A model generated the notes under the pieces. The model saw nothing but the letters and a program-made list of their open reading frames with translations, searched no databases and was not told the DNA's origin. Source: Polytrichum commune (lineage: Eukaryota > Streptophyta > Polytrichopsida > Polytrichales > Polytrichaceae). From it: a DNA stretch of 64,000 nucleotides. The stretch covers positions 32,116,001 through 32,180,000 of the forward strand of contig OX485803.1 of NCBI GenBank assembly GCA_950295325.1, written 5' to 3'. Made by a program: the position numbers and the translations under genes. Each line of letters starts with the position of its first letter. Position 1 is the first letter of the stretch. This document shows positions 3,041 to 64,000 of the stretch, piece by piece.

Positions 3041-3148
3041 GGGTTAAGGTCAGCATTTATCGTGTTTTATAGGAGAGTGCAGCTAGCCGTAGGGATAAGA
3101 GAGAGAGAGAGAGAGAGAGAGAAAATTTGGTTATAATAAAGACGAATC

Positions 3149-3410
3149 ATGGGCTCGGCATATGAGCCAGCATTGAAGAAGGCCAGGATCTTCGAAGTGC
3201 CTGCAGCGCCGGAAGTGAATGGAAGTGGAGCTGCTGTTGTGAATGGGTTCGGGAGTAATATTGCTCTTGTGAATGATGGGAGTGTAAGCGGGGCGGATCA
3301 GCAAGCTGCTGCTCTGGCTGCATTGAATGGAGACTTGGAGTGCCGGCGGTTCAGTACCATGGAAGGATGCCCTTATGGAACCAAGTGCAGATTCAAGCAT
3401 GGCGCCTCTG
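3149..3410 (+). CDS. CCCH-KH gene exon 1 (extra N-terminal finger)
   Basis: Encodes residues 1-87 plus one base of codon 88. It starts MGSAYEPALKKARIFEV, a basic region resembling the N-terminal lysine/arginine patch of the family, then an Ala/Gly/Asn-rich linker and a complete CCCH finger ending at H84. The donor is CTCTG|GTAACA. Reading through the donor runs into intron sequence that stops at codon 102. Confidence 0.82.
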
Positions 3411-6400
3411 GTAACATACTTATATTACATCACATGCTTATCTATTGTGACACATGACTCATATGTATGCATTCTGTTCTACTCTCATGCATCATCTTTC
3501 CTCTGCATATACCTAGCGCAAGGGCCCTGAAAAGCTTGACATCACCTCTGTCCAGTACCTAGGGTAGGGATAGATGTTAACATTGGTGAAAGTGGCACAT
3601 CTACCATTAACCTGCATATTGGGACATACGTGATGAACTTCAGGCCCTTGTGTTGAAATGCCCACTCACTCATTTGCATTCTCTTCCCTCTTCATGCATT
3701 ATCCGCCACTGGAATCCAATGGACTAATGTCATATTCATTTGTCACCTTTGTGACATTCTAAGTTTCCATTGAGAGGGTGTCATATTTGTGACATTATTG
3801 TACTCAATAAAGTTGACATCAATGTAGTCAAAATACATTAGTGATCTCTCCTCTATATAAGGTAGACAACCTTTATTTGGTTACTTTTCTTAACCAGACC
3901 ACCTATATTTGAGTGGTATGTGGTTAGGTGTGGCTCCAAAAATAGATACCAAAAAGACATATCTTCAAAAGTGACTGGACTATGCACTCAAAATATGACA
4001 ATTGATCTAGGCTCAATAGTAAACATAAATGGGAGGGACCCATGACCATTTAATGAGCACAAGAATCTTCACTTTGATATTGACTAAGATATTCATACGA
4101 ACTCTGAAAATTATCTCGATTTGGAGCTGCAAATAATCTTGTGCTAATTGCAAATTTCGTATCCTATAAGTGGGCTAGTCAGGAAATAATTATAATAGTA
4201 ATAAAGTAACCATTTATGACCCATCTATCTTAAAGCACAATAGCACCCTGAATTGCTCTACGTCACCTCTGTCCAGTATGTAGGATAGGAGTAGATGGTA
4301 CTCTTGGTGAAAGTGTAATATCGTAGATATTGATGCATAGCTAAGTGATGGACTTCGATTCAGGCCCTTGTGATGAAATACCACTTACTGCTTGCTTTGC
4401 CCCACTCACTCAACCACATGTCCCATTGACTGTGATACCCATTCACATTCATTCTGATGATCTCATCGATCTATGTGCTACATACTGCGTAATGCACAGG
4501 GGGGCTGACCTGAAGTTCCTCACCTCTCCCTCTCTCTCCCAATATCTAGGATAGGGGTAGATGTACACTTATCACCGAGTGGTACTATCTACCCCCAGTC
4601 CTAGATATTGGACAGAGGTGATGAACTTCAACCACATATCCCATAATTTGACTCATGAACCCCAATTGTGGGGTCCTCTCAGAACCAAGACAATGGTGAT
4701 TGGGTTCTTGACCTACTTCTTGAAGATGTAAGACTCTTGAAGCCCATCATGAGTTGGCATACATATGTAGTGGACAACTCATGGTATTATTTGGAGTGAG
4801 TATGGTGATGCACAGATGATGAGCCTGTAATGTCCTCAATACACATTGATGATTCAATTTTACTTTTACAAAAGAGGAGCAACATGCTTGGAAAGAGGGC
4901 ATGGAGAGGAATCCATTGATACTTTATTCTATAAATTAGAAAAGGTTCAAATTTTTGGTTTCGGTTTTGAAACAAGTTTGTGTGAAGCTGTGTAAAGCAG
5001 AGGTCATCGTCTAGACCCTCAACGAATTTTTTTCACTTATTAGCAAAATTATATTCTCTTTTAGTATTTACACTCATAAAATTCATTATAGTACAAAAGC
5101 AGCTCAAGACTAGTGCTTGCTAAAAACAATTTAGCAGCCCCAAAGTCTTAACCGCATGAAAAAAAGAAGATGAACAACTTATTACTCAATTATGATAACA
5201 TACACAGTGAGGATAGGCACATACCTATATTATATATCAACCACTTTATCAGTTTACCACTTCACCACATATTTCCCCAAGTGGTAAATTGTCCAAATCT
5301 TCTGATGTATTTACCCTTCTTTGATTGGTATCCTTGTCTAGTACCTTTGACTAGTATCATAGAGCTTCATGTTGGTTATTGGTATTTGATTTCAATATTG
5401 TAAGGAAAGAATATTATTTCCTTGGGTGGGATATGTAAGTGAGATTGCCTCATATTGTGGGCATGATTGTTTGCAGACGAGAGAAATATGGAGCAACCTG
5501 TGTCTGCTCTAGGAAGCAAAACCAAGCCATGCACCAAATTCTTCAGGTATGTTCCTTTGATCACATGACCCATGAATACTCCCCTCAATTATGATATAAT
5601 AGAGGGCACCCTATTTATCTTTACTATTGTTGGAATGTTGTTTCCACATGGGATTCAAGTGGGTCTCAACAAATGTATGAAAAACACATGGCAAGGTGTG
5701 ATAGGAAATTTGCAATTCTCCATCAGAATAGAGAGCCCTTTACTATATATTCTGAGCAGCTCTGGTAGCAGCATTGACACCTGCAGCTTCACGCACGCTC
5801 TGCAACTTTCAGGGCGTTTAGGATTGACGTTGAGCCTAGTAATTAAGTATCACACCCTGGCCAGAAATACTGATGTGAGGAGGACCATCGTCTAAGGTAA
5901 ATTGTTAAAAGCTATCCATTGGGATGAATTACCGCATAATATGGATTGCCAATATCTCAGTGCAGTCAGTCTAGTGAGGGTCACTTTTCAAATCGCATTC
6001 CATATCGATTAATGTTTATTTAATTATGGACTATTTCTTTCAGAGGGGTACGCGTCACCTGTAGTAACTTCAATGTAGGCTATCAGTTGGCCAGTCACTA
6101 GTACTTCAAAATCAAGCAGAATCAATTGTACAGTTTCTTTTGGATTTCCCCCTTTGGGACCAATGATCAACCCACCCAGCAGCTAGCCAGGCCCGTGTTG
6201 ACGATAGTGACCATGTGGTTTTGATCACAATTAATAAACATAAATTCACGACCAGTCGTATTAGTATCCTATTGATTTTGTTTACCAGGTAAAGATTTGT
6301 GGCTGGCTACTGAAATTTGATCGGTCTCTGGCACAATTAAATCTTTAATTCAAGCTTGAAATATGGTCTCTTAGGAAGTAGATAATAGATATCCTGCTGA

Positions 6401-9400
6401 AAACTAACTTGCCTCCTATTACCCTAGAGCAATATTCTGGCTCTACTGATAACAGATATTCCATTGTCTCAAAACAAATAAATAAAAGTTATTATCAACT
6501 AGTTGTCTGTCAACATGCTACCTTGAACTCTCCAAAAGTTTTTCAGGTCTCTAGGTTAAGGGCCACTTGACACTATGGCCAAGGGCCTTGCCTGTGAACA
6601 TAAAGTTTTGTGGGCCCTTGAAACTCATCCAAAGGCCGTACCATGGAGAATTAAAATTGAATACCTTGTGGTCAAGGGCCTTCAAGTGTATTGTAAAGAC
6701 CATATGCAACGGGGCTCTCAACTAAATACTATTTCATTATCATCTAGTTTATTTGGGCCTTTTTACATAAATAGTGATAATAAATCAAGGGTTAAAATAT
6801 TTTTAAATGTCATGGGCTCCCGGTTTTGTGTTAGACTCGCCTCTTTGAGATCAACTTGGCATAAAATTTGGAAAGCATGAAATCATCCATTGCATGCCAT
6901 GTAGGACTTCATTTAGGTTTTTCATCCATTCAAGTTTCCGTGGTCCCTTGGCCCTAAAGTTCTAGTTAAGCCAAATTTCAACTTCCTCAATAAGGGAGAA
7001 TCTTCCAAAAAATGTGAGATTTCTATCACTCACCAAGGACCGCTATGGGACCATGTGGTCTTAACCCTAGAGCTGTAGTTCTCTTCAACCATATAAATTT
7101 ATGATTTTCTACAATGATAGATGCTAGAATCACATTCATAGATTTCATAACATCTACATAGTGGAAGAAATTCTATTGAAGACCACTCATTTAGATATGC
7201 TTAAAACATCCAGTTGCCAGCATTTTGTGCAACCACTCTGTTTTGAATCAAATTCACATAACTGCAGAAACGCATTCATTTCAGATTTATGATATTCAGC
7301 CTATCTGAGTCAGCTGTTGGTTGAAAAATTTGTGATTGATTGTCCACATTGTTCTTACCTTACCTATGTAGGAACAACCCTGTAATAAAGACAAGGGAAA
7401 ATGACATTCTCTTAGCTGCATTTGCCCAGCCTGCATGGCATAGGGAGGATGATAAGACATGACCTGTAACTTATCAAACTAAAGATCTTCTGATGGGCTT
7501 ACTAATCTTTCTGATAGTAGCTGGTCTGAAAAATCTGATCATTTAGATTCTGATAATTCTGCCTTTCAGACTTCCTCCTTAGCCATTGTTCTGGCAAGGT
7601 CAAAAGGGAGGCTGTGTCTGTGAGCCTTTGTATTTTGGGTCAAGGCCTTTGGCTTACTACTAATGAGTCCTGCTGCTACTTCAGTAATTTAGACATTGTA
7701 AGCCATGTACAGTCCTCCTGGTTTGAAGTTACTTCTTATGCCACTGAATAAATGTCATATTTATTGGTTTCTATTTTGTACTCTCTAAATTTATGTGATT
7801 AAAAGCATAGGCCATCGACTATCACAGACTACAGTTCTACCATCTCTCCTTATTACCACCTAGTCCTTAGTTTTTAATCATCCTCTATATTGGTTCATTT
7901 TCAAAGTCGGTAGTCAAGGACACTTACTTAATAGAACTTGTTCAAGGCCTGCCTCTTAGGGTCTATTGGATCAGCGATATTACATAATGACAGATTAGTA
8001 GCTACTAGGCCTTTCCTCTCTTTCTTATTAAGCAAGATATTTTTCAAATAGGATCCTGATAGAAAGCTTAAGATATTTTCAATTGTTTACTTTGATTAAT
8101 GAGAAGATCCAAAGAATTCTGTAACACTGGGTGGCAAGCAATTATGCGTTACAAGATTCTGGATTTGACCAAGATTGGAAGGAGTTTTACCTATTTTTCT
8201 CTATATTGTACTAAATATTTTCATCCATGCCATATCAACAACACATTTAAGAAGTCTTCCTTGCAGATTCAGCATTGCAATTTGCATCTTGAATTAATGT
8301 TGGTGGCTTTTACTTGACCTCCAGAGGTGTCACTAACCATTTCTTACAGTTGGAAATACTCCTCTACTCCCATAGTCCATTTTGTAAATTGTCGCAATTC
8401 ATATGGAGATATTTTTCAGTTGCTTACTCAATGTTCGTAATAACTGCCAAGAAAGAATCTCAAGTCCTGAGCTTCTGATATCTGAGATGTGATGTAGATT
8501 AATGGTGCTCTTGAACTACACAGTACAGAGCTCAGTGTATATTCAAGACAAACCTTCAAAGAAATCTCAGTTAAATACAATGTACCAATTTTGGGCACCA
8601 AATTAACATCTCACAAGTTCAAATCACCCCCTAACTTTCCACAAGAATTCTATATGGTTCTCACGATGTCTTATCAGTTTTAGCACCATAATAGCCACTA
8701 TCAATTGCAAGTTCCTCCACTACCTTGAGATAATGGTCCATTTAAGACTCTCTTCAAGAATCCATCCACCATGGCTATCACAAAATAAATTGTCAAAAAA
8801 GTATCTATTTATAGACTATAAGTCATATTGTGAGAGCATTCCAACATTATAGAGTGTTGAGTCCTCTCAATAATCCATGAACCAATACTTATGCACTGAT
8901 TCGATTGCTCTGCTGCATCCATTCTTTTCTTTGTTTTGTCCTTCCTAGCATAAGGATGCTTTTGTAGACTAATTGATTTAAGGAAGTGGGCGTAATTCAC
9001 TAACCCATCTTAAACGGACACTTGTATTTGAGCGGTAGGTGGTTAGGTGTGGATCTCATAATGGACAAAAAGATGTGTGCTCAAAAGAGATTGGACTACC
9101 GTGCTCAAATTTTGTTAACAAGTGTAGGCTCAATAGTAAACATAATTAGGGGGACTTGTATGACCCTTTAATAAGAATATGAATCATATCTTCATATGAG
9201 CTCCAAAAACTATGAGGGATTGATTTAGGGATGTGGATACAATTCGGATTTGCTAACCATCTTGCATTAATTACTTGGTTTATATGCTACAAGAATTGGG
9301 TGCTAAAAGTGTCCGTTTATGGCCCACTTCCTTCATAAGTCATATTGTGAGAGCATTCTAACATTATAGAGCCTAAATAATCTCAATAATCCATGACCCA

Positions 9401-12400
9401 AGAATCATATATTGATTTGTTGCAACCAATATTTTTCTACGTTTTGTTCTAACATAAGGGTTCTTCTATAAACTAATTTGACTATTTGTGTTGGATACAC
9501 AGCACATCCGGGTGCCCATATGGTGAGGGTTGCCATTTTTTGCACTACGTTCCGGGCGGGATTGCGGCTTTGGGTCTTGTACCCTTGGGAATGACTACAT
9601 CCACCACAACAGGGGCAATTTTGACCCCCACATCAGGTGTGTTACGCACCACGATTGGTGGGTTTGGGCCAACTACATCTTCCCCCATCCCCACATTGAG
9701 CTCATCTAGTGACCCGAGTGTCACCGTAGGGGGTTACAAAACAAGGTTGTGCAACAAGTTCAATACCGCAGAAGGTTGTCGATTTGGGGATAGGTGTCAT
9801 TTTGCTCACGGGAAGAGCGATTTGCGACCCTCCAATGTTCGCTGCAATGACCTTGACTACATGGTAAGTGCATACTCTTACCCTTCTCTTCACACCTTTC
9901 TTTGCTACCAAGCCTAAATCCCATTATTTATGTTTTGCAATGACAGGAATTGTGATGTCTTCATTTTGATTCTCTTCCACAAGATGGTTGCAAACGTAGA
10001 TTGTAGAACCATCTAGTAGAAGAAAATTACACTAGATATCCGATTTAGTGTGGCATCAAAATTGATGTGCCATGTTAATTAGGACTAGTCTTCTTGACTT
10101 GTCATGTAACATTAAATATCATATATTACCTTCTCGAGTTGCCACCCATTTGTCACAAGACAATAGTTGTGGGTTGATGATACATAGTATGGGCCACAAA
10201 AATAGATGTTTAGTGTAGTGGTAAGACCATGTGGACATTGAGTTGTAGATTGTAACATTGTTGTTGGCCATAGTCATATTGTGGAAACCAACACAGACAT
10301 ATATAATTGAATGAATGAACATGACCAACTTAATGAAATTGAAAGAACCAAGGATGGAATTCTTCTTCAGCTTCGATCATGACCAAGAATATTGAGCATG
10401 GAAATTCTCGCTGCAGCTAAGTAAAGTAGGATAAATTTTATCAAACTCATGGATGCACTAGAAAATTAACTGTAGAACCCTGTATGTACAGTTTTCAATC
10501 CTCTGGCAGGAATTGAACTATAATCAAATTAAGGGTTGGGTGGGTGGGGTAATACTTGCTAGTTAGGAAAATTCTAAATGATAAAGCAAATACCACTTTG
10601 ACGTTTGGTCCCTTTGGATCATGCTTCAGAAAACGAGAGCCGACTTGAAGTCTTCAATTCAAGAAAAGATCATATATTTAAGTTGTATTGGAGGACAGAA
10701 ACCTCAAGTTAGTAAAACTACTCAACTTAACCAAATGTTTATGGACTTGACCACTCTGCCACCTTCTCGGAGCAGGAAAAAAATTTATACATCATTATGT
10801 AATACAAAAAGATTGAAACTTGGTTTTACTGAACATATATGCAAATATAAACACTTTCTTCAGAGTTCCTAAATACAAATTGGTCAAATTGATTGGTGGA
10901 AAACCTCTTTCACAATTGCACTATAATTTGTAAGTTTGATGACCTATGCCCCTAGAGCAATTTATATCTTATGAAAGAAAAAATGAACATTTATATCCTA
11001 TCTTACTAAAGGTATGTGAATCGGGGATAATCTAAATTATAGCCAACTTGTTGTTGGATAATATTTTGTTGGTATACTTAGGTGAAGTCTATATTTCAAT
11101 GGTCACATTAAGCCCTATAATAGCAATAGAATCTATTAACTCTGCAATCATGTAAACAACTTAATCTCACTTTGAATCCCCAAACCCACTTCGTAAAGTT
11201 TTAATTATTATCCAATTTAACAAAATCAAAGACCCACATACCATTATGCTCAATCAAGATACTCTTGGTCGTTCTGGGAATGCAAACTTTTCCAACAAGT
11301 ATATAGCATAGGGCTTAAACTATTGTGCATTTTGAGTTGGGTCACGTTGAAATGAACTCAAAGGTGTCTGTTCTTATAAATGCATCCAAAATAATCACGT
11401 TAAAAATCATAAGATTCAAATATGCTCTTAAAAGATTAATCCAATCACTTGTATTCTATTGTTAAAGCAAAATGCACATTTGTTAGATACATCCAAAGTC
11501 GTACATGGCATCTAGATGAAGAGTCACTAGGTTGAACTTGACTTTTGAGGTTCTGTTAAAATATTAATCATATGCACATTGCATGATCATCGATTTGGGG
11601 CGTCTATAATCAAAAAATTAAGATTAAAATTAAGCATCTATGGATGGATGAGACCATGGGTGAGTAGAATAGTGTCCAGACAAAGGTTTGAAACAATCAA
11701 ACCTTGGATAAGTTAAGTGCAATCAACTTCCACTTGTGGAAGCATATATTTCATGACTTGACCATTGTGAGGCCCGAAACTGTCTTGGGTTCTTTACATG
11801 TGAATACTGAAAGGTTGCAAGGCTAAGGGTGCCTTGTTACCTTGTTTTTTCAATGGTCCATGCCACCTTGGATCCTCAACTCTAATGCAAGAGGCCCTAT
11901 GTGCTCTACTCCCAAATCCTTGACCTTGACCAAGGTTGTAGAGTTGCTTTTCCTTGCTACAATACAAGTGGCACGTGTGCATGGCGATGAGCAAGGACAC
12001 TGGGTACTATAAAAAATAAATTAAATGTTATATATATGAGGCAATCATCATGGTAAGGGTTGATTGAGATTATGGGGCGTTCATTTGTTGACACAATCCA
12101 CCTTCATAGTAAATATATATCCCAGTTTGATTCTTCTAACATTCCAAAATGTAAGGCAGATGTTGTGTGTTTAATATATTTTACGGATCATAGGATGTGC
12201 ATGACTTGTACATGCATAAACTTGGATTTCAATTCATGACATGTATCCTTGGTGTGCGGTAAAAGCATGGTGCAAATTTGTTGTTAATTCAGTCAAATAT
12301 GAGTCCCACATAATTACATCAGGTGGTTGACTCCATGATTCATCGGACTATACGATGATTTCTCTCATTTTCACCCTCTCGCATGTTAGATGTCGTAAAC

Positions 12401-14309
12401 ACGGTAATGCCCAAGGAGATTTTAGATTGTTGTTACAGTATGAATGTATGTGATTTGGTATATTTAGATATGCATAGTTATGAACAATACTATGGATAAT
12501 AGGTCCCAATATCATCCTAGGAATCTAATATAATTGAATTTAATGTGGGAATTTCCAGCAAGGAACATACACAAGCAATGGTGGAGCCGGAGGGACCCAC
12601 CTCCTCCCGCCAGTGGCATCGGCAATCTACTATGGCGAACCTACCCCTCCAGGTGTGGCAGCGTCGGCAGCCACATTTGGAGTATTGAGTAGCACCAGTA
12701 CAAAGATGTGCATTGACGCGGTTCTCGCAGGAGCCATAATCGGCAAAGCCGGTGCAAATGTGAAACAAATCAGTCGTCTCACAGGTATGCATCCATCACA
12801 AAAGCGTTATGGATTCACGCAAATCATTGTTCTAACTTTAGCAAGAGAATTCCATATTATTCAATCTCACAAAATTTGTAAATCAGAAGGTTTTTTACTA
12901 GCTAGGAAGGAATGGGCGCATTGCTAGCCAACTTCAATCATTATTGTGTTTAGCTATTATTTACATATTTGTACACTACATTGAAAACTTTGGGCCATAG
13001 TTTTGAACTTATTTTCACACCAAAAACATTGGAGATAATATTGTGGGTGCACATCATTTATCAACCTATAGTATTTAATACCAGATTTTCATATTGTAGG
13101 TTGTAATATTTCTATTGGATTGAAAATAATGTGCATTTGGAAAACTTCCAACCTAGGGGAAGGAGGTGGCTACCTATATCATGCACTACGGGAATTGCAT
13201 GGTCTTGCCACTAATTCTCTTCCACTAAATGGTTCCAAAATCTATGAATGTGGATTTGACGTCTACAAAGTGCATAGATCATAGAACCGGTTGGTGAAAG
13301 AAAACTACACCATTTATGGTTTAGTGTGACCTACTCTTTGAAATTACACAATGTTATAACTATGTACTGTAGCTCTCATTAGTTTTCAGCAAAGATTAAA
13401 TTGGTTGGTTGGACATTAGAGAACATTAACATCTTTACTTCGTAGAAACTTACATCAACAATAAAAAGTTATAGCATTGTGTAATTCTGAATAGTAAGTG
13501 ACACTAAATATCATAAACAGTGTAGTGATAAAGCCACGTGATTCCTGTAACAGTAGAGACATGACAAATGTGAGTAGAATTTCACTTTCATACATGATAA
13601 TGTACATTGTGGATCACACTATAAGGTTGCCCATGGTAAGTCACACTGTACATCTGTCCACACTATTTACCATAATCAGTTCCATAAACCCTCGTTCTTT
13701 TCTACATTCAGATATTTTCCAGGTATACAGATTACATTGTTATTTTCACAACTAGGTTTGTTGATGGCTATGTTGAGTATCACATCATCATTATTATTAT
13801 TATGATTATTATTGCTTGTCGATGAGTATATTTTGTTGAGTGAACCCTCTCCCTTTTTTACATTCAGATAATTTCAGATAAACAAACTATTACGTTATCA
13901 CCACAACGAGGTTCGTTGATGGCTTAAATTGTTGAGTATCACATCATCTTCATCATTAGTAGTAGTAGTAGTATCAGTATTAGTATTGCCTGTTAAGTAT
14001 TGGTTTGATGATGTCATAAGGAGAGGTAATTTTGCAGGTTGCAAGCTTTCAATTCAAGACCATGAAACGGATACAAGCATGCGTTGCGTGGAGATGGAAG
14101 GCTCGTACGAACAGATTGAACGCGCAACGGACATGGTTCGACAGTTTTTATCGCACCGAGAAGTGGTGCCGCAACGGACCGCGTCCCTCACTTCACACAA
14201 CTTCAAAACCAAGTTGTGTGAGAATTTTGGGCAGGGCACATGCACGTTCGCGGATCGTTGCCATTTTGCCCACGGCGCTCATGAGCTTCGGTTTGTGAAG
14301 AGATCGTGA
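3149..14309 (+). CDS. CCCH zinc finger and KH domain RNA-binding protein (KHZ/C3H14-type), five exons, 396 aa
   Basis: Predicted RNA-binding regulator of the plant CCCH-KH family; Arabidopsis KHZ1/KHZ2, which affect flowering and senescence, are family members. Exons 3149-3410, 5477-5546, 9503-9863, 12559-12784 and 14038-14309 join in frame to 1191 nt. Order: finger 1 (C65, C74, C80, H84), finger 2 (C106, C115, C121, H125; split by intron 2), finger 3 (C194, C203, C209, H213), KH domain about 279-345 with GKAG loop at 293-296 (split by intron 4), finger 4 (C367, C375, C381, H385). Fingers 1-3 are CX8CX5CX3H and finger 4 is CX7CX5CX3H. The start is the first ATG after an in-frame TAA at 3137-3139, with A at -3 and G at +4. 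Fingers 2-4 plus KH match the family layout I know; finger 1 looks extra. Very sure of family, fairly sure of exon ends. The exact orthologue is not determined, so no symbol is given. Confidence 0.88.
3520..4640 (+). repeat. Three copies of a ~125-bp hairpin element in intron 1
   Basis: Copies lie at about 3520-3649, 4243-4369 and 4506-4630. Ends read AAGGGCCCTGAA and TTCAGGCCCTT in copy 1. Each carries CACCTCTGTCC near the left and its complement near the right, around a core such as ATATCTAGGATAGGGGTAGA. Copy 3 is a near-continuous hairpin (CCTAGATATTGG on the right pairs with CCAATATCTAGG on the left). Right flanks of copies 1 and 2 are also similar, so larger intron segments were duplicated as well. 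Confidence 0.7.
3879..4211. mobile_element. MITE-like element, family with GTGGTTAGGTGTGG core, copy in intron 1
   Basis: A 333-bp segment bounded by GGTTACTTT and AAAGTAACC. Its core (TTTGAGTGGTATGTGGTTAG, then GGACTATG and GGCTCAATAGTAAACATAA) is shared with copies at 8982-9331, 15800-16080, 27590-27730 (inverted) and 61098-61215. No coding capacity. The superfamily is not clear because the target duplication is not convincing. Confidence 0.6.
4641..5476 (+). other. Remainder of CCCH-KH intron 1
   Basis: I see nothing coding here. The pyrimidine and branch region immediately before the acceptor at 5476 reads TGATTGTTTGCAG. Small open frames in this stretch lack any recognisable similarity. 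Confidence 0.6.
5477..5546 (+). CDS. CCCH-KH gene exon 2
   Basis: A 70-nt exon between TTTGCAG and GTATGT, encoding GSKTKPCTKFF (residues 100-110), the conserved lead-in of the second finger. Phase 1 in, phase 2 out. It is too short to be found as an open frame and was located by family conservation and splice sites. Confidence 0.85.
5547..8811 (+). other. CCCH-KH intron 2, 5' part
   Basis: Gene-free. Moderately AT-rich sequence without a clear transposon terminus or repeat. Intron 2 totals 3956 bp. Open frames up to 107 codons occur but show no family similarity and cross no conserved exon. Confidence 0.6.
8818..9484. repeat. Direct repeats (~150-164 bp) flanking a MITE-like element in intron 2
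   Basis: The segment 8818-8981 recurs at 9335-9484 (both start ATAAGTCATATTGTGAGAGC), offset 517 bp. Between them sits 8982-9331, which begins GGAAGTGGGC and ends GCCCACTTCC with inner inverted AAACGGACACTT/AAGTGTCCGTTT. The second direct repeat ends just before exon 3. This could be a duplication followed by insertion, or a miniature element with long terminal direct repeats. Confidence 0.65.
8982..9331. mobile_element. MITE-like element in intron 2
   Basis: A 350-bp element with terminal inverted repeats GGAAGTGGGC / GCCCACTTCC and sub-terminal AAACGGACACTT pairs. Its interior shares GGTGGTTAGGTGTGGA, GATTGGACTA and GGCTCAATAGTAAACATAA with the element at 3879-4211. No open frame of interest. 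Confidence 0.65.
9503..9863 (+). CDS. CCCH-KH gene exon 3
   Basis: Encodes the rest of finger 2 (TSGCPYGEGCHFLHYVPGG), a Ser/Thr/Pro-rich linker, and finger 3 (CNKFNTAEGCRFGDRCHFAH), ending in DYM before GTAAGT. The acceptor is ATACACAG. The linker has no recognisable domain and is probably disordered. Confidence 0.9.
9864..12558 (+). other. CCCH-KH intron 3
   Basis: Gene-free, 2695 bp. The segment 9915-10100 is related to 13180-13345 in intron 4 (shared TTCTCTTCCAC and GAAAATTACAC-type blocks). The segment 10137-10240 is related to 47480-47590 far downstream (shared TCACCCAT, CAAGACAAT and GTTGGTGATGA-type blocks). These are dispersed repeats of unknown class. Confidence 0.5.
12559..12784 (+). 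CDS. CCCH-KH gene exon 4 (first half of KH)
   Basis: Encodes residues 232-306: a Gly/Ala/Pro-rich linker and then TKMCIDAVLAGAIIGKAG, the first strand, helix and GxxG loop of a type I KH domain. Acceptor TTTCCAG, donor ACAG|GTATGC. The next codon (G307) is split by the intron at the position where the family has TG(A/C)KLSI. Confidence 0.9.
13689..14000 (+). repeat. 156-bp tandem duplication in intron 4
   Basis: CATTCAGATA at 13705 recurs at 13861, and the two following stretches align throughout (ACTAGGTTTGTTGATGGCT versus ACGAGGTTCGTTGATGGCT, then GTTGAGTATCACATCATC in both, then an ATT- or AGT-rich tract). The second copy abuts the acceptor region of exon 5, but the duplication does not include the exon. 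Confidence 0.75.
14038..14309 (+). CDS. CCCH-KH gene exon 5 (rest of KH, last finger, stop)
   Basis: Acceptor TTTTGCAG. Encodes CKLSIQDHE, the second half of the KH domain, a short linker, and the final finger within NFKTKLCENFGQGTC...HFAHGAHELR, ending at TGA 14307-14309. Lead-in and finger match the C-terminal finger of the family closely. Confidence 0.92.
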
Positions 14310-17367: not shown

Positions 17368-17856
17368 TCATCTATGCTGCTGCTGGGGCATATTACTAGA
17401 CCTATGTCCCCCTGATGAAGACGAAGAAGAAGCTCTAGGTTGGCCCCCGGCCACTCCCATATCTAAATCTTGTGCAGTAGAATCTTGACTATTACCATTT
17501 CCTAATGAAGCCCGCTCTCCATTCCGGGGCACCCGACTGTGATCCTCCTGTGATGAGCTGTTGTTGTTGTTGTTGTTGTTGTTTGTCAGGACTCGGCTCG
17601 ATTGATGAACAGCTGCAACAGTCGCGGGTATAGAGGAATTTTTACCATTTCTTGGTGGGCGAAATATCAGAGGCAGATAGTCATCTGTGTCGCAAGCAAA
17701 TCGAGAATTCTTGAAATGTTCCTCTAAAGCAATTCGCCCCTGTTTAGTGTCATCAAAATAGATGGAGGTTAATATGTCATTTTTCTTAACTTCGTTGCCA
17801 TCAGTGCCGTTAACAATTCGATAATTCTTGCAATGTTCCATTAAAGCAGCCAGTCC
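17368..17856 (-). CDS. TEL gene exon 5 (C-terminal exon with two tandem acceptors)
   Basis: Starts after AACAAACAG (17856) or after ACTAAACAG (17739), both in frame. The canonical family sequence ([19 protein letters not shown]) follows the inner acceptor. The outer one adds 39 residues beginning [14 protein letters not shown], a diverged copy of the same exon start, followed by residues translated from copied intron sequence. The tail carries poly-Asn and poly-Ser tracts and ends MPQQQHR at TGA 17370-17368. Which acceptor is used cannot be told from sequence; the outer has the better pyrimidine tract. Confidence 0.8.
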   Translation of the reverse strand, partial: GLAALMEHCKNYRIVNGTDGNEVKKNDILTSIYFDDTKQGRIALEEHFKNSRFACDTDDYLPLIFRPPRNGKNSSIPATVAAVHQSSRVLTNNNNNNNNSSSQEDHSRVPRNGERASLGNGNSQDSTAQDLDMGVAGGQPRASSSSSSGGHRSSNMPQQQHR

Positions 17857-20800
17857 CTGTTTGTTGACATTAAGAAGGATAAAGTGTCAGCAAAATAGAC
17901 GCAGTTAACATGACATTTCTCTTAACTCATTGCCATACGCTCATGATCAGGACAGATTTCAGGGAAACAGAAATAAGACTTTACCTGCACTCTTGCATAT
18001 GTCACATGACATACTTTTCGTGAATTAAAAGCCTCCCATTGTTGAGCATGAAAGGCCTTATAAAGTCGATAAGTAGCCTGTACTGTCGTGAAATTAACAA
18101 ATGCATACCCCAGATTACACCTATTTCTGCAATACCAGGGCCAGTGTCAGTGGACCAAGCACTTGTCTCAATGCAAACCGCACAATCTATGTCAATTATT
18201 TTAGATAAATCAGTGGCAAGCAGAACCTCAAAACCTAACCTTGCACTTCTGTGCCCTGACAGTCGCTCATTAAAAAAAATTCAGCATCATTTTAAACTCG
18301 ATCAGTGATGTTGCGCTGGTGGTGGTTCTTACAAACATGTTTTAGGAGAATAAACGTCTTGCCACAGGGACAAACACAAACACACGGCACCTACTAACCA
18401 ATTATAAGAACTACACCAGGTGAGTTGGGCATTGTTTCCACTTCAAAGAACACCAGAACCTTAAGGTCACAGAAATGAGGCGATCAAGAAAAGAGAGCGT
18501 CTTACTTGAAATCTATGGGAAGGTAAACAAAATCATAAGCAGATTCTGGTTCTTTAGGCTCCAGATGTGAATTGCTAAACAAGCAGTGCTGGTCAAGAAG
18601 CTGAAGCAGCATCGCCTGACTGGCGAAAGCAACACAATTCCAAAGAGAACCTTAGTTATCTCTTCCAGCAAAACATGAAACATGCAAAACAAAACTTTGA
18701 AGGGAAAATATGTAAGTCACTTGCAACCGAGGACAGACAAACCTTGAATACAATACCACCATAAACCTTGACCAGAGAGAATACCAGACTACTAATAATC
18801 ACAACTGATAGTTTCTGGGTAACTTGAACAACATCCTGCTATTCATATGATCTCATGAACCTCGGTGAGTGACAGGTAGGTTGAAGACTGCTGAGAACTA
18901 CGGCAAGAAACACACCTGTATTTGTTAGGTATGTTCTTGATCATAAGAGTGGTCTTCGAAGTCTCATTTGCTTGCACTTCGCTTTCAACAAATATATACT
19001 GTGCTGGAATAGGATCTCGAGAGGAACACCTGGACGTTAAACCGGCCTTCCCACAGCGAGGACTATCTCTCATACTCAGCTTTCCTCCAGGCTGAGACGA
19101 ATCTACTTTTCCAAAAGCACCACCATTTCCGTTTACGGAGACATTTCTCTTTCTACGTCCTGAAGCAGCATCCCCTCTTCCTTGGCCAACATTGCCACTT
19201 GGCCTTCCAAAACCCTGACAGTTATTGAAAGACTCAGCGGGCGATGCTGGTCCACTGTAGGCCATGCTAATGGCCCTTGCTGGAGCTCTACCATATGGTA
19301 AAGGCTCTGCCCCCCCAACAACCATGACTGGTTGGCCTGGACTTTGAGGACCTCCATGCATTGTGGCGTATGGAAATGGCTGTAATTGCCCGGCCGCACT
19401 GTTCCAGTGTTGTGGCTGCACCATGCCAATTGGTGCCATCGGTGTTCCCCCTGCAATAGAGCCAAGGCTTGCCAAATAAAACGGATGGCCACCATGTGGT
19501 AGGGTAAGAGGAGCAGCTCCCCCAGTATCACCATTCCATCCCAAAAACATGGGCTGTCCTCCAACTGGACCCCCTGCACCTGGTAACGTGGGCCTACTAG
19601 CACTAATAGGGAACAACGCATTCTGCTGCTGTGTCTGAGCTTGTTGAGCTTGCACTCTAGCCTTATGTGCTTGTCCACCTGGTCGACTGAACTCGATCTT
19701 CACACGCTTCCCACCAATCTCAGTGCCATCCAGTGCTTTCAGAGCTCGCGCAGCATCACGCACATCAAAGAACTCCACAAATTTGTGTTGCTTTTTAGCT
19801 GGAGTTTCCCGCAACTCTTTCACTGCACCTGCCTCATCACAAAACCTCCATGTCTTGAGTCACTGTAGGGATAGAGGACATCTCTCAAATAGATCTCTAG
19901 TGTGGAGTTTCAGTGACCAAACGTTTAAAAAATACACTGTATGCCACATGAAAATCAAAATACCACATATGCCACATCTAAATGTAGATCAGTACCCAAG
20001 AAACCTAAATAGAACATCTAATGTTTGACAAGCACTCGCTGACAAGCACAATATATGTCAGCTTGCAACCCCTGCAAGACACAGGAAACACCACTAAATG
20101 TCTGGGAAACACTGCCATGTGTGTCTAATTTCCATTCAAGTCAGTGACGTTGGTACTAATCATCTCCATGGCCAACTTCTTGCAGCCGCCATGATGATGA
20201 GACCTCAACAGATGCCGCACATTTTCGAACAAGGATGGGCATCACTAAGGGCCATAAACTGTGACCTTATTGCAGGGTTAAGTGAGCTATGTACTAGGAC
20301 ACTAATGCAGAGAGAGATTTACTTGCACAAATGAGTGCATTTGTGTGCAATACAAACGGATACTGGATGCTGCTGAGGTCTTCCACTTGAGCTAACATTG
20401 GATTGGTCAATTCACAATTAGCAATACTAAGTAAAATTGATACTAATCAGCAGATGCTATGTCAGCAGATTGATACTAATCATCTGGATGTGCCCGACTT
20501 CTTGCAGGCACATGCTAAACAGAGCTCGACAGATGCGGCATGCTTTCAAACAGGATTGGGTATCGATAAGAAATCATTACTGCAACGTTAGTGCAGGGAT
20601 AAGTGAATTTTGTACTACGACACTCATGCAGATATAATCTACTGTTATAAGCGAAAAGGACATTCCACTGAAATGTAACAGGAGTTGCTGAGGTCTTCTT
20701 CCACTTAATCTAATCTGGCATTGAAGTACTCAATTCTGAATTAGCAATAATAAGTAGAATCATGGTCATGTGAACAGACTTACCAAATTACTCCAAACAA

Positions 20801-22865
20801 ACTAACCTACCAAAACGGTTGGCTGTGACTGGAAGGAAAAGAGAAAGAAAAAAGAAGGGAGGGGAGTAGTAGTACTGCCATCATACATACCATGAGCCTC
20901 GAATACAACTTTCAGTTGATCCATCGTCGTCTCCACATCCAAGTTAAAAACCACCAGGGTGCCCTGATTCAGACCATCCGGGCCTGCCGCAGCTCCTACA
21001 GGAACCGTGTACTGAGCCCACATGACAGTTCCACCGATGAGACCCCTTGTGGAAGAAGAAGAGGTAGAAGTAGAAGAGGTAGTGGTGGTGGAGGATGAGG
21101 ATGATGATGATGACGAACCCCCCACAACAATATTATTGTCCACAAGCACATTATTATTAGTATCCAAATGCTTGCCCGCATCCTGCCTCTCAAACGCCTG
21201 CAAGTCGGTGTGCTGCTGCTCACGAGAAGAGCAAGCACCTCCTCCTCCTCCCCCCCCTCCTCCTCGCTGCTGCTGCTGCTGATGTTTCTGCGACTGCTGA
21301 AACTGGTACTGCATCCGCTGCTGTTTGTTCAGATGCTGTTGTTGGATATCCCGCAGTGCATCTTTGGCATGGCGAAGATCATAGTAATGCACCGTAACCA
21401 AACCTTCCTGCCTTCTCTCGGAGCCTATAGCCCTCACCGGACCCCACTGCTCCATCTCCGTCTTCAGCTGTACATCATCCATATCCGGGGCCACACCATT
21501 CAGCAATATGGCACGGGAGACATGCTCCCTGCCTGTGATTGTAGGGTGGGACACTAAAGCTCCACTGGGCCCAGTGGGCAAACCCATCGACATGAAAGGC
21601 TGCATACTTGTGTACGTCCGCAATGTATGATGGTGAGGCTGCAACGGCTGGCCGATTCCCACAGGCGGGATGGCCATAATATTATGGGACGCTGCACCAC
21701 CACCACTCTGAGCAGCAGCACCACCACCAACTGGGTGGCCCATGTCGGCCATTCCCAGATTCTCCCAGGCAGGAGACGGTGCACCGGAAACTGGAGCAAA
21801 ACCCATGGATGCACCATTGCCATAGGGGAGAATGACGGAACCTGACGCAAAATCAGCGGGGCCATAGGCTGCAACCACCCGGCCGGTGTCCACTCCACCG
21901 GTATACACATGTGAAGAAGGGTCGAGAGAGTACGGTGCAGGTAAAGCCATGTAAGGGAGGCCAGGGGACGGGCACGGAGACGGCGACGGCGTGTATTCCG
22001 AAGGGGAGGGTGTATATTCCCGTGCATTGGGATCCAGCACCTTCCCGTCATTGCAATGACCTCCCGAGGGGGACATCGACATTGCGTGGCAGGATGGAGA
22101 GACCGCCAGCGTTGCGGGGAGAGAGAAATTATGATGATGGAGGTGATGATGGGAAGATGAGCCTGCTGTGTATTCATTCTCGGTAGACTGGTGGAGGTGA
22201 TGGTGATGGTGATGGTGAATGCTTGCGAACTCGCTCTCCATGACGGTTTGGTCCGGGAGCTGCAGCGACGGTGGCGGTCTATATTCATGCAGCTTGGGAG
22301 GCGGTGGGGGTTTCGGGTCGTATGGCCTTAGTAGCTCGCAACTGCTGCTCAGGAAATCTGCCTGTTTATGCTGATGCTGGTGATGCTGTGCCTGCTGATG
22401 ATGGGCTGGGATGATGTAATCTACAGGTCCCGGGTTGGTGTCAGCTTGCCTTGATAGCTCAGGAGGGCTGGACAATGAACGGGTTTCATCAACAACAACT
22501 CCACTGTCAATGCCCTCCGGGGCTGCTGATGAATCTCTCTCTTGCTGTTGCTGTTGCTGTTGCTGAAGATGATGCCCCGACTCCAAGCTCAACGCTTGGA
22601 GACCGGCCTGGAGGCTAGCCTCGTTATCCAGGGTGATGTTGGTGGTGGTGGCGGTGGTGGTTGTAGTTGTCCCACTATTGTTGTTGCCTGATCTCTCGTC
22701 GCTCACCATCTTCCTCTTCGTCTTCTTCTCCAAAGACGACGATACACTACTGGCAACTTGCACGGCGAGTGTTGTCAACACAGTTGTGCTGTCGAGACCA
22801 ACGCTAGTTGTCAATGCCAAACTGCACACCTGCACATCGACACCCGCATTGGTTTTTACTCCCAT
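17368..22865 (-). CDS. TERMINAL EAR1-like Mei2-family RNA-binding protein, five exons, 1210 aa (1171 aa with alternative acceptor)
   Basis: Mei2-like proteins carry three RRMs, the last specific to the family. The TEL branch (maize TE1, rice PLA2/LHD2) controls leaf initiation rate at the shoot apex. Exons on the minus strand: 22865-20891, 19828-18916, 18619-18506, 18126-17985 and 17856 (or 17739)-17368; all join in frame. RRM1 about 450-510 ([12 protein letters not shown]), RRM2 about 633-708 ([26 protein letters not shown]), RRM3 from about 951 ([50 protein letters not shown]), then [22 protein letters not shown] rather than AML: divergent RRM1, [10 protein letters not shown] motif near 277-286, and the short tail. 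TE1-type proteins are usually about 500-680 aa; the excess here is low-complexity Gln, His, Ser, Gly and Thr, mostly N-terminal. The first ATG (22865) has A at -3 and G at +4; an alternative ATG at 22709 would shorten it by 52 aa. Confidence 0.9.
17740..17945 (-). repeat. Tandem duplication of an intron-exon junction in the TEL gene
   Basis: On the minus strand, the intron end plus exon start at about 17930-17815 is repeated at about 17810-17700. Shared blocks include ATGGCAA, GTTAAGA, AATG(T/A)CAT, GTTAAC or ATTAACC, TCTATTTTG(C/A)TGACACT, AAACAGGG and GGAACATT(G/T)CAAGAATT. The upstream copy carries about 20 extra bases (TTATCCTTCTTAATGTCAAC) before its acceptor. Acceptor spacing is 117 nt. 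Confidence 0.85.
17985..18126 (-). CDS. TEL gene exon 4 (RRM3)
   Basis: A 142-nt exon encoding [14 protein letters not shown], then [20 protein letters not shown] and CHVTYARVQ, the RNP1 strand, helix 2 and final strand of the Mei2-type RRM3. Acceptor ATTGCAG, donor GTGCAG|GTAAAG. It ends in phase 0, so either of the two downstream acceptors keeps the frame. Confidence 0.92.
18506..18619 (-). CDS. TEL gene exon 3 (RRM3)
   Basis: A 114-nt exon encoding [17 protein letters not shown], a short spacer, and [11 protein letters not shown]. Acceptor TTTCGCCAG, donor TTCAA|GTAAGA. It matches the Mei2-type RRM3 helix 1 and strand 2 and was found by conservation, being too short to stand out as an open frame. 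Confidence 0.92.
18916..19828 (-). CDS. TEL gene exon 2 (rest of RRM2, linker, start of RRM3)
   Basis: Acceptor GAGGCAG, restoring [10 protein letters not shown], the canonical RRM2 continuation. After FSRPGG comes a linker rich in Gln, Gly, Pro, Met and Ala of about 240 residues. The exon ends in [10 protein letters not shown], the RNP2 strand of RRM3, with donor TACAG|GTGTGT. Phase 1 in, phase 2 out. Confidence 0.9.
20140..20775 (-). repeat. ~320-bp tandem duplication in TEL intron 1
   Basis: TACTAATCATCT at 20154 recurs at 20474, and alignable blocks continue through both copies (CTTCTTGCAG, ACAGATGC, GCAGGG then AAGTGA, TGCTGAGGTCTTC, AATTAGCAATA). Intron 1 spans 19829-20890 and is otherwise featureless. 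No exon sequence is included. Confidence 0.75.
20891..22865 (-). CDS. TEL gene exon 1 (N-terminal region, RRM1, start of RRM2)
   Basis: A 1975-nt exon encoding 658 residues plus one base. It contains poly-Gln (about 101-108), a His-rich tract (about 217-223), SPS-rich repeats after LDPNARE, RRM1, then poly-Gln, poly-Gly and poly-Ser tracts, and the first strand and helix of RRM2 up to FEAH. Donor CATG|GTATGT. No ATG lies upstream in the same open frame; the frame continues into GA-rich leader sequence, so the start is a best guess. Confidence 0.85.
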
Positions 22866-25200: not shown

Positions 25201-25732
25201 CCCCGTGTATCCCGAGTGGAAACTACATTTTCAACACATGTAAAGATGAAATAGAGAGTCCTTGGCGGTATTTGTGATGTGGAGCGGGCAAAACCGTCAT
25301 GTGTTGTGTTCCCGGCCCTGGGGTTTATGAGAATTAACTCAGCGTCGCCCAAGTTTTCTTATTGCTTACATTACCGTACACATGAAGAGTGGTGTCGGGC
25401 TATTGGGAACTGGCTTCCGATTTGTCCTACTAGGGTGGGCGGGCCAAGCCATGTAGCCTTGCGTAGGCCGATCCGGGACTTAGGACAGCGGGTCCCGTGC
25501 AAATGCCCACCGTAGTTTAGATCCCAAGTTTTGAGAGGTGGACAAAGGAGGTCCCAAAAGTTTCACCCAGCTCTCAAAACAGTCTCTGATTGCATGACGA
25601 GCTAACGAGCTCCTAGTAGAAAGGTTTCTTTTAAAAAAGGATCGAACCCATGATTTCGTCCCTCTCCGACAGACTTTTAAGTGGATGGCTCTAATGTCAA
25701 GGTTTTTTTACATGAAAGCCATTCGCCCATGG

Positions 25733-26048
25733 CTCTTGAGAATCTTTGGATTGTCATTGGCGGAGAGTGTCACGGCCCCTGGTTTTAGGTTACACGAGGG
25801 CGGTTTTGGACTCCAACCCATTTAAAATTTTAGTCGATGGAAAATCCACGTGGAATCCCACGTGGCAAGTGTGGATAATGTTGGTCATGGCTCTTGAGAA
25901 TTGTTGATGTCTCATTGGTTGAGATTGTCATGGGCCCGTGTTTTAGGTTTACATGAGGACAATTTTGGACTACAACCCATAACATTTCTAGTGCATGAAA
26001 AATCGGCACAGAATTGCACATTGCAAGTATGGTTAACGTAGGCCATGA
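25733..26048. repeat. 158-bp tandem duplication with a paired G-box in one copy
   Basis: CTCTTGAGAAT at 25733 recurs at 25891, exactly 158 bp on, and the copies align throughout (GTTTTAGGTT, TTTTGGACT then CAACCCAT). Copy 1 contains two CCACGTGG palindromes 14 bp apart (25848-25855 and about 25862-25869). The matching part of copy 2 has GGCACAG and GCACATT instead, so one copy gained or the other lost the sites. Confidence 0.75.
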
Positions 26049-60339: not shown

Positions 60340-60499
60340 TCTCCCCTCCAACTTGAAAACTTAAACATGCAATATATTATTATTATTATTATTATTATTA
60401 AGAAGAAAACCCACATGAAAGAGATTACTAACCCCATGAAGTTTTTTCCCCACTCCTCCAACTTGAAAAGTTTGAAGTACAATAGTAAACACACTTGAA
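60340..60499. repeat. Repeat module CTCCAACTTGAAAAGTTTGA and (ATT)n
   Basis: The module CCAACTTGAAAA...GAAGT(A/G)CAATA occurs here twice (about 60350 and 60453) and again at 61830-61860 and 62045-62075, linked each time to CATGAAAGAGATT(A/G)CTAACCC or CACTTGAAATTA blocks. An (ATT)n microsatellite occupies about 60377-60400. A C18 run precedes it at 60302-60319. Confidence 0.6.
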
Positions 60500-60676
60500 T
60501 GGTCCAAGATGGCCCTAAACTACTGGATGACAATGGAGAAGTACCCAAACCGAACAAAGTGGTCGGGGTTTCAATTCTTGGTTGTGAAGTCGTCTCTCTA
60601 TTTGATGGAAAATTAGCCAGGTGGTCAAGCACCTCCTGTGTTCCAAGAAAAAGAAAAAGAAAATGAACACACACAA
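60500..60676 (+). mobile_element. SINE, copy 2, with target duplication
   Basis: Same family as 33775-33969: starts TGGTCCAAGATGGCCCTAAA, keeps CCAGGTGGTCAAGCACCTCC, and ends in an (AAAAAG)n tail. The B box has decayed to GGTTTCAATTC. Flanks AAACACACTTGAA (60487-60499) and ACACACACTTGAA (60677-60689) form the target duplication, which lies inside the older CACACTTGAA repeat module. Divergence from copy 1 is substantial, so it is probably older. Confidence 0.8.
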
Positions 60677-61097
60677 ACACACACTTGAAATTAGGAATCC
60701 AATCAAGTTTTTCGCACTACTCCCATTTTCAATCAAAAAACTATAAAGTTTAGTAAGGTTGGAAGTGGTCACATGAGGGTTGTATAATGTATTTGGCTCT
60801 ATTGTAGGCACTTCCAACTCCACGTGCATTCGTACTTATTAATCTGACTTCTTTTTAACTTTTTCATCTCGATAATCAACTATCTTTCTCTTGTGACCTT
60901 TCACACATACCCTACCCAATTTATTAAAAATCGAACCTCAAATGTTGTGTATATTTTAAGAACATGGTCCAATCTCATTGTAACACATTGTTTCTCATTG
61001 TAGTCCAATTTTGACAACAAACCTCGCTATATACCACTAAGAGATAGGCCTCCAACTCATAAAAGTCAACACATAAGATATGTGGGTGTTATTCGGT

Positions 61098-61215
61098 TAA
61101 TCAAACACCTATACTTGACTGGTGTGTGGCTAGGTGAGGATCCAACAACAAACATCATACAAACACATGTTCAAGGAATATTGGACTGTGTCTTCAAATT
61201 TCATTAGTTGCTCCA
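61098..61215. mobile_element. Degenerate GTGGTTAG-core element
   Basis: Shares TTGACTGGTGTGTGGCTAGG and ATTGGACTGTG with the family at 3879-4211; left end GGTTAATCAAAC resembles the GGTTACTTTTCTTAACC terminus. Truncated. Confidence 0.45.
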
Positions 61216-62830
61216 CACTCAACAATGAACACAATTGGAAAGACCTACACATTCAACAAAAATGCACTTTCAGTAGTTATAACTACGAACTAAGAGGAGC
61301 TCCAATTCCCAATACGATTCATGGTCTATGCTTCGTCGTAGATTTCTTAATACAACCCAATTTTTGAAAACATTGGAAAAAAAAATGGAAAACATGAAAA
61401 ACCAAATCCAGGTCCAAATATGATATGGGATGGGAGATTGACGTATCTTTGTTTAGATTGGATTGCGTCTTCAAATCTTATGAACTAGTCCACACTCAAC
61501 AATGAACACGATCGGGAAGACCTATGTATTCAACTCCATGCTCTTTAAGTAACCATAACTAAGAACTAAGACGAGGTTTGACTCTCAATACGATTCATGG
61601 CTAATGCTTCATCATAGGTTTCCTAATACAACACAACTTTTGAAGACATAAATAAATTAAAAAGGGAGAATATGAAAAAACAAAAAAAACCCCAAATCCA
61701 CAGCCAAATATGATATGGGAAGGGAGATTGAACATATATTTATAAAGATTGGATTACGTCTTCAATTCCTATTAACTAGTCCACACTCAACAATGAACAC
61801 AATTGGGAAGACCTATGTATTATGTTTCTCCCACCCCTCCAACTTGAAAAGTTTGAAGCGCTTTCCACTCAAGTTGCGTTGGTTTGCATGTGTTGTTTGT
61901 ATTTAACTTCCTTTCTTGCAATTGAATTTTCAGTTTGTGCCCCCCCCCCCCCAAAAAAATAAAAAATAAAAAATGTTGAAGTGCAATAAAAAGAAATACT
62001 AAACACACTTGAAATTACAAATCTGATCAAGTTTTTTGCACTCCACCAACTTGAAAATTTTAAAGTGAAATAAAAGAAATACTAAATGATAATTACAAGA
62101 GAGCACACATGAAAGAGATTGCTAACCCAATACAAGTTTTCCCCACCCCTTCGAGAGGTGCCAAGGTGTATGAAACTTAAGGTATGTGGGTGTTATTTAG
62201 TTTGTGTTTCTCAATGTTCTCCAACTTTCACTGAATAGATTTACACATTGAACCTTTGTGACGCATTAGCGTTCTACGTTGAAGCGTCATAAAAAATCGG
62301 ATTGAAAATAGGACATCCTCTAATTTAGAACTATATTACGGTTATCGGAAGTGTACGTTTGTTGATTTCTTAATTGAATACAAAAGGTGTTACCAATCGA
62401 ATGTTCATTTATGAGTGTGGAATAGTTAGTAACGTTTGAAGACGTAGTCCAATCTATTATTAACATGCCATCTTTTTTAACGATGTTTGTTTTTTGATCA
62501 TCACTGAACCACACACTAATCAAATATAGACTCCAACGAAGAAACATAGCTTATATCTATACTTACTCTTCCCGCTTAGTCGATTACATATATTTGAAAG
62601 ATATATGATGGCTCTTATGAAGATTGGATCGCGTTCTCAAATCCTTTTAACTAGTGCACACCCAATAATGAACACAATTGGGACGACCTATGAATTCAAG
62701 ATAAAATGCACTTCCAATAACCATAACTAAGAACTAAGAGGAGGTATGATTGTCAATGCGATTCATGGTTGATGTTTTGTCATGGGTTTCCTCCTACAAC
62801 CCAACTTTTGAAGACACAAACAATATATAT
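61190..62830. repeat. Tandem ~285-bp repeat (about 2.3 copies) plus one separated copy
   Basis: CCACACTCAACAATGAACAC recurs near 61211, 61490 and 61780 (spacing about 279 and 290 bp). Each full unit continues with TAACTA(A/C)GAACTAAGA, AATACGATTCATGG and AAATATGATATGGGA. A separate copy lies at about 62600-62830 (CACACCCAATAATGAACAC, GCGATTCATGG). The interval 61827-62170 holds the CCAACTTGAAAA module. No coding capacity. Confidence 0.75.
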
Positions 62831-64000
62831 ATATATATTGAGAATATGGAAGGGAAAAAAACGGATTAACATATGCACACCTCAATCCATTCAATCCATG
62901 TACCTCCCTTACCACCCTTCAACCCAAACGAGAAACAAGAAGTTGCTCGCTCACTCGCTCTGGGGGCCATGTCACTGAGGCGCTGTGAATGGAGGGTGTG
63001 GTTTTGTGGGCATACCCCATCCGAGCCATCCATTCACATCGCCCCATCCTACGGTCTAGGAGACTTCTCGGGCAACCCGAAATTTTGTCCGATGGATGAA
63101 ATTTTAACGGATGAAAATTTAACATTTGTAAGATGAAAGGGATGATTGTTCGTCCAGTTGTGTGAGAACATTTGCGTGAGATTTTTGAAAGTTCCCAAAG
63201 TTCCCAATGAAGTTCCCCGGAGGAGCCGGGCACGCCCGGGGGGGGGGGTGTTCCTTTCTTTCTTTCATCCGTCCGTCGGGGGTGGTGGGGGGGGGTGATT
63301 TGGTGGCAGGAGGGGAGATCCTTGGGGTCAGCCCCCTGCCCTCGCCCTTTAAAATGAAATCTTTTCGACCAAATCCCCCCTCTTTCATTGGGCCCGTACT
63401 CACTAGGCCTACTACCCTAACCCCCAAAAGCCCCCCCCCCCCCTCCCTAAAACCCCAACCCCCAACCGGAAGGAAAAGAAAAAGAAAAGAAAAAGGAAGT
63501 TGACGCTACAGTGGCCGGCATGGAATTTCTTCTTGTCGGGGCCACTCCCTCGTCCTATATATCCACCCCTAACGTCTTACTATTCTAACCCCACCCCTCT
63601 CCTTCCTTCTTCGACCCCAACTATATATACATGTATACATACATACAACTCCCCTCCCCGCGCGCCCTCCCTCTTCCGTCCCTAATAATACAAGGTCGGG
63701 ATATAACCTATATTATATAGAGATATATCATGTCTTGTTTGTTTCCCTACTAAATATATAGCAAGTGCAAATTGTAACCATCCACATGCACCATGCACGC
63801 ACTGCTGCTCATACCATGCACAAATAACTCATGTCAACCCTAATTTTGAGTATGTGAAGAATCTCGCGCTTAGCTTACTCTACGATCATTGCCGGGGACA
63901 CGAAATATTGAGTGTATTTTAGTGTCACCAAAGAGAGTTCATTATGTCTTGCTCGATGTGAAACTCTCAACCACCTCTCACTTACGAAGTGTTTTTTCCC
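62831..64000. other. GC-rich terminal stretch with promoter-like AT boxes
   Basis: G11 (63238-63248) and C13 (63431-63443) runs flank a GC-rich block. Further on, CCTATATATCCACC (about 63555-63568) and CTATATATACATG (about 63621-63633) are TATA-like and are surrounded by CT-rich sequence, as seen in plant core promoters. A plus-strand gene could start beyond the window, but nothing downstream to 64000 is coding. Confidence 0.3.

Follow-up and report, generated by a model that had tools for sequence, protein, structure and literature searches.

We describe a minus-strand gene for a Mei2-like protein, in the window (the whole 64,000-nt stretch of DNA analysed), in which the boundary region of the last intron and last exon is present as two diverged tandem copies. 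The last intron consequently has two AG acceptors, both preceded by splice signals, and they delimit an optional segment of 117 nt (17740–17856, minus strand) that is read in phase 0 as 39 open codons. We lean towards the view that an appreciable share of transcripts uses the outer, upstream acceptor. Should the long form exist, the gene would offer a clean natural example in which duplication of an exon boundary has made intron sequence protein-coding at the border of an RNA-binding domain; with splicing confined to the inner site, the segment would be an ordinary decaying duplicate.

Organization of the gene

The short form of the predicted protein matches the RRM_2 profile of Pfam (PF04059) over its entire length (1–97 of 97) with 109 bits at a cut-off of 25, and its PDB matches at E up to 0.01 are four sequences, all S. 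pombe Mei2 (best E 8.8e-25); the protein is therefore Mei2-like. The subfamily label TEL (TERMINAL EAR1-like), used in the earlier note, presumably suits such a gene. Coding exons, all on the minus strand, were positioned by splice consensus and the expected protein. The coding part of exon 1 (20891–22865, from a presumed start ATG that is a guess) joins the start of exon 2 to give RRM2, matched by Pfam RRM_1 with 55.4 bits. Exon 2 (18916–19828) holds the remainder of RRM2, the linker and the beginning of RRM3, which exon 3 (18506–18619) also encodes. Exon 4 (17985–18126) contains the RRM3 core with the sequence VTYARVQ; its start was inferred from a gap in the Mei2 alignment, and placing it at 18126 restores two residues of the Mei2 chain that are absent with a start at 18120. 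The last exon, E5, ends with the stop codon at 17368 and begins at 17739, the canonical start, from the inner acceptor (17368–17739) or at 17856 from the outer one. Joined as the short form, the exons amount to 3516 nt with a single, terminal stop. A Pfam scan of the 727-residue N-terminal part gave no match to an RRM1 at E up to 0.01.

The end of intron 3 (18120–18130) reads GCAG/AAATAG/G (slashes mark splice junctions) and itself offers a choice of two acceptors in the same frame, separated by 6 nt. Splicing to the upstream site yields KNRCN, as in Mei2, and splicing to the downstream site loses two residues.

Searches for protein relatives of RRM3 returned 25 stretches that fit a pattern in genome contigs and two in viral contigs, none of them confirmed, and six RRM3 peptide strings found no match in paper texts. 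Among the titles and abstract openings of the gene-family splicing literature there was no TEL acceptor duplication, and the strings “intron” and “splic” have no occurrences in the main text of PMC8882779, as far as that text was available.

The duplicated intron–exon boundary

Local alignment and a BLAST self-comparison delimit an outer (upstream) copy of 138 nt (17799–17936, minus strand), made up of the last 80 nt of the intron and about 58 nt of exon copy, and an inner (downstream) copy of 120 nt (17682–17801, minus strand), with 62 nt derived from the intron and 58 nt of canonical exon. Both acceptors read AAACAG/GG in phase 0, with exon starts at 17856 and 17739. The earlier note had reported coordinates, phase, the 117-nt spacing, AAACAGGG at both junctions, the absence of stops and two peptide strings from this region, and all of these were recovered as described. 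Its proposal that a tandem duplication across the boundary had made two in-frame acceptors is borne out as well: in a local gapped alignment the copies score 58.5, whereas 2000 pairs of first-order Markov sequences average 13.9 and reach 27 at most. Chance similarity is thereby rejected, and the duplication of this intron–exon boundary is confirmed as real.

The two copies abut with an overlap of 3 nt (ATG), a microhomology at the join, as expected of a single tandem duplication joined in this way. We infer one event, in which a unit of roughly 115–137 nt, reaching from the 3´ part of the last intron into the 5´ part of the last exon, would have been copied and joined at the ATG. The exon copy extends to the breakpoint at 17801–17799 and the intron-derived codons occupy 17799–17740. 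Of the residues in the insert, about 19 thus derive from the exon copy and 20 from copied intron, which replaces the earlier division into 15 and 24.

The copies are 68.6% identical by BLAST with gaps counted, and differ at 23 of 120 aligned positions and by three indels. In the intron parts 7 of 60 aligned positions differ, and all three indels (1, 1 and 20 nt) fall there: 20 nt of pyrimidine-rich intron present in the outer copy are absent from the inner copy, which has two extra single bases of its own. In the exon parts 16 of 60 aligned positions differ. The exon part is, if anything, the more diverged (Fisher p 0.12 to 0.03, four lengths tried), which argues against use of the outer acceptor. 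Near-identical short tandem copies can in general be assembly errors, according to the available parts of PMC4974935, but here substitutions are numerous and three indels separate the copies, and an assembly duplication error was rejected as very unlikely because they are only 68.6% identical.

Splice signals of the two acceptors

Spliced to the outer acceptor, intron 4 is 128 nt long (17857–17984, minus strand; GTAAAG...AAACAG) and has a CTGAC at -31 as well as pyrimidine-rich sequence ahead of its AG; spliced to the inner acceptor it is 245 nt (17740–17984, minus strand), with TTAAC at -30. Matches to the branch-site-like motif YTNAY upstream of the outer site are TTAAC at -49, CTGAC at -31, TTTAT at -24 and TTAAT at -14, and those upstream of the inner site are TTAAC at -30 and TTGAT at -14; the inner copy has ATGAC where the outer has CTGAC. 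Pyrimidines make up 14 of the 20 positions from -26 to -7 at the outer site and 13 of 20 at the inner one, and 8, 13 and 11 of 20 at the other three acceptors of the gene. Only one of those three has a YTNAY within 56 nt of its AG. The motif is a weak guide, since two of the gene’s other acceptors lack one over that distance, and its looseness counts against reading much into the outer site. No earlier AG occurs within 60 nt upstream of the outer site. The signals of the two acceptors are alike and sequence alone picks neither; their similarity, together with the lack of an earlier AG, argues for use of the outer one.

Composition points the other way. GC rises from 33% in the intron-derived part to 47% in the exon at the inner acceptor, and from 37% to 40% at the outer. 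In plants, a larger intron–exon GC step would favour the inner site. That the difference in composition between intron and exon matters is also stated in the available parts of PMC4974935.

Frame, codon use and divergence of the insert

The finding was singled out partly for its open frame, and the earlier note had taken the openness of the intron piece as telling. The absence of stops holds. As notable evidence the openness does not hold, since stops make up 104 of 1857 intron triplets (5.6%), and 24 intron codons are open by chance with P = 0.25; in the gene’s own introns the frame is open in 378 of 1581 windows at a length of 24 codons, and in 102 of 1401 at 39 codons. Openness alone was accordingly rejected as evidence for selection.

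Frame and openness taken together say slightly more. Of the eight combinations of the three indels that separate the intron copies, only the present one is both in frame and free of stops, whichever copy’s letters are used. When duplications were simulated at the acceptor of the last intron with the intron letters of the outer copy, 375 of 7861 (4.8%) were in frame and open; the same simulation at the other three introns gave 408 of 7861, 251 of 6788 and 65 of 7726. The single productive indel state and the 4.8% both argue for use of the outer acceptor. With the intron letters of the inner copy, however, 1616 of 4895 simulated duplications were in frame and open, so that the productive state could be plain luck. 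Because the ancestral intron letters could be those of either copy, the argument from frame and openness is worth a modest factor at most.

Codon use is similarly mixed. The intron-derived part scores -0.02, close to the -0.03 of the true exons E3 and E4, and the exon-copy part scores 0.12, close to the 0.11 of the canonical exon start; both resemblances are in the direction of outer use. Among intron windows 9% score -0.02 or more, and among coding windows 8% score as low, which says nothing either way for the intron-derived part. For a score of 0.12 the corresponding figures are 3% of intron windows and 21% of coding windows, and the exon copy still looks coding-like, as expected for a copy of coding sequence.

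A Ka/Ks comparison, suggested in the earlier note for the whole 39-codon segment, gave a ratio of about 1 for the exon-derived part (14–20 codons), with no sign of protein-level conservation. By NG86, Ka is 0.295 and Ks 0.258 over 14 codons, and 0.347 and 0.272 over 20; the ranges across these lengths are 0.30–0.36 for Ka and 0.23–0.30 for Ks, tiny numbers that rest on two to three synonymous changes. The differences fall 4, 9 and 3 on the first, second and third codon positions in 60 nt. With Ka about equal to Ks there is no signature of protein constraint, and that Ka is at least as large as Ks, like the distribution over codon positions, argues against use of the outer acceptor.

Position of the insert in RRM3

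In the Mei2 alignment, the canonical last-exon stretch pairs with the helix-and-strand extension on the C-terminal side of RRM3 in the yeast protein, and the short form runs through the junction without a gap there. With F634 and F644 as anchors, the junction Q/G would correspond to Q682/G683 of yeast Mei2, which would put the insertion site two residues after N680. The main chain of N680 takes part in RNA recognition, and UU(U/G/A)G is the motif reported for yeast Mei2 (PMC7859202, available parts).

In queries that all lacked the two residues at the start of exon 4, RRM_2 scored 109 bits with the canonical exon, 107.4 with the exon copy and 99.6 with neither, and the match to the Mei2 structure fell from 90.6 bits for the short form to 77.9 with the insert. 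The claim that the inner site gives the canonical family sequence agrees with both comparisons, although the difference in RRM_2 is small. The RRM_2 match of the long form has its end on the exon copy and that of the short form on the canonical exon; that the exon copy still matches the RRM_2 end (107.4 against 99.6 bits) argues for use of the outer acceptor.

In the long form the 39 residues would fall exactly between the RRM3 core, which ends in VTYARVQ, and the C-terminal extension. The likely effect would be a longer, altered RRM3 tail, in which the diverged copy of the helix could replace the original. One could go further and imagine two versions of RRM3, one with the usual extension and one with the diverged helix copy and the original moved by 39 residues, such that the choice of acceptor retunes RNA binding; we consider this improbable.

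Use of the two acceptors

The weights given here to the possible outcomes are judgements and were not computed. The outer acceptor retains the parental layout, with the same intron upstream, the branch-site-like CTGAC at -31, the pyrimidine-rich stretch and the first AG beyond it, and the canonical exon follows the inner acceptor. Within the view that the outer acceptor is used, competition between the two sites, that is, alternative use, is a tentative proposal.

A real though less than even possibility is that the outer acceptor is dead or negligible. The junction from 17985 to 17739 would then be the sole splice, the 117 nt would be intron and their open frame luck. The near equality of Ka and Ks in the exon copy, the odds of an open stretch given above, a shared phase expected in about one case in three, the canonical form of the protein, whose RRM_2 and Mei2 matches are the better ones, and the larger GC step all fit this outcome. 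Against it, the AG, CTGAC and pyrimidine-rich stretch of the outer site are intact and come first, and just one indel state is productive.

It is rather unlikely, and a special case of use of the outer acceptor, that the inner acceptor is dead and the insert always present, the copied intron end being now exon. In favour of this outcome, 20 nt of the pyrimidine-rich stretch are missing from the inner copy, which has ATGAC for CTGAC and is open and in phase. It nevertheless retains TTAAC at -30, with CCTCCATCTATTTT and an undamaged CAG after it, so that it is not clearly broken, and the 20-nt change could have gone in either direction.

Very unlikely is the gain of a new intron, in which the outer acceptor would be used and a 75-nt candidate intron (17740–17814, minus strand) would then be removed from the weak donor ATT/GTTAAC to the inner acceptor, leaving a 14-residue in-frame insert. 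The insert contains only two GTs, ATT/GTTAAC and GAA/GTTAAG, and both are poor donors by the consensus and by comparison with the gene’s own donors (GTATGT, GTGTGT, GTAAGA, GTAAAG), which makes this outcome unlikely; the second would give an intron of only 51 nt. In its favour, splicing from the GT at 17814 would retain exactly 14 codons of the exon copy, and there is a close precedent in potato RdRp (PMC4974935, available parts). Anything else receives as little weight from us.

Relation to known systems

As far as the available parts of PMC4974935 describe it, the boundary-crossing duplication is of an already known kind, and the potato RdRp gene is the nearest case. There, too, the 3´ end of an intron and the 5´ start of the next exon were duplicated in tandem, the acceptor, branch site and pyrimidine tract were carried along, and one of the gene’s introns contains a second duplication. 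In potato a new intron arose through a GTAAG donor and is proved by 106 RNA-seq reads, whereas the Mei2-like gene offers only weak candidate donors, and the potato copies differ at ten nucleotides, compared with 23 of 120 positions and three indels here. Plant NAGNAG tandem acceptors (PMC3095350 and PMC2375911, available parts) resemble the present pair in being two in-phase acceptors of one intron that give proteins with and without certain residues, but they are spaced by 3 nt instead of 117, and the present pair differs in its origin by duplication and in that its two protein forms are predicted ones. The structures of S. pombe Mei2 RRM3 (7EIO, 7EIU, 6YYL and 6YYM, 7DUS) likewise extend the classical fold at its C-terminal end by a helix and two strands (PMC7859202, available parts); unlike the long form of the Mei2-like protein, S. 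pombe Mei2 has no insert at the junction.

Other local duplications in the window

Self-comparison of the window gave 15 rows of direct repeats within 1500 nt at E up to 1e-3, which were merged by eye into eight places, the acceptor duplication included. Five of the seven others (all but 299–1104 and the 60433–62861 cluster) were aligned, and 17–21% of their aligned positions differ. Intron 1 of the Mei2-like gene contains a diverged near-tandem duplication of about 300 nt (20140–20437 and 20461–20760, 20% mismatch), and further diverged near-tandem duplications lie at 3506–4449, 13672–13993, 25729–26042, 299–1104 and 60433–62861; the remaining one of the eight is at 8788–9508. Old local duplications are common in the window, and one across an acceptor is therefore no great surprise.

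On the plus strand, frames at 3140–14309 match CCCH zinc-finger and intron-split KH domains in Pfam and apparently form one gene. In this neighbouring CCCH-KH gene a stretch of intron is duplicated (8788–9009 and 9294–9508); the duplicated stretch seems to extend up to the acceptor in front of the exon near 9503, where the upstream copy has no AG, with an uncertain alignment end that BLAST places at 9478.
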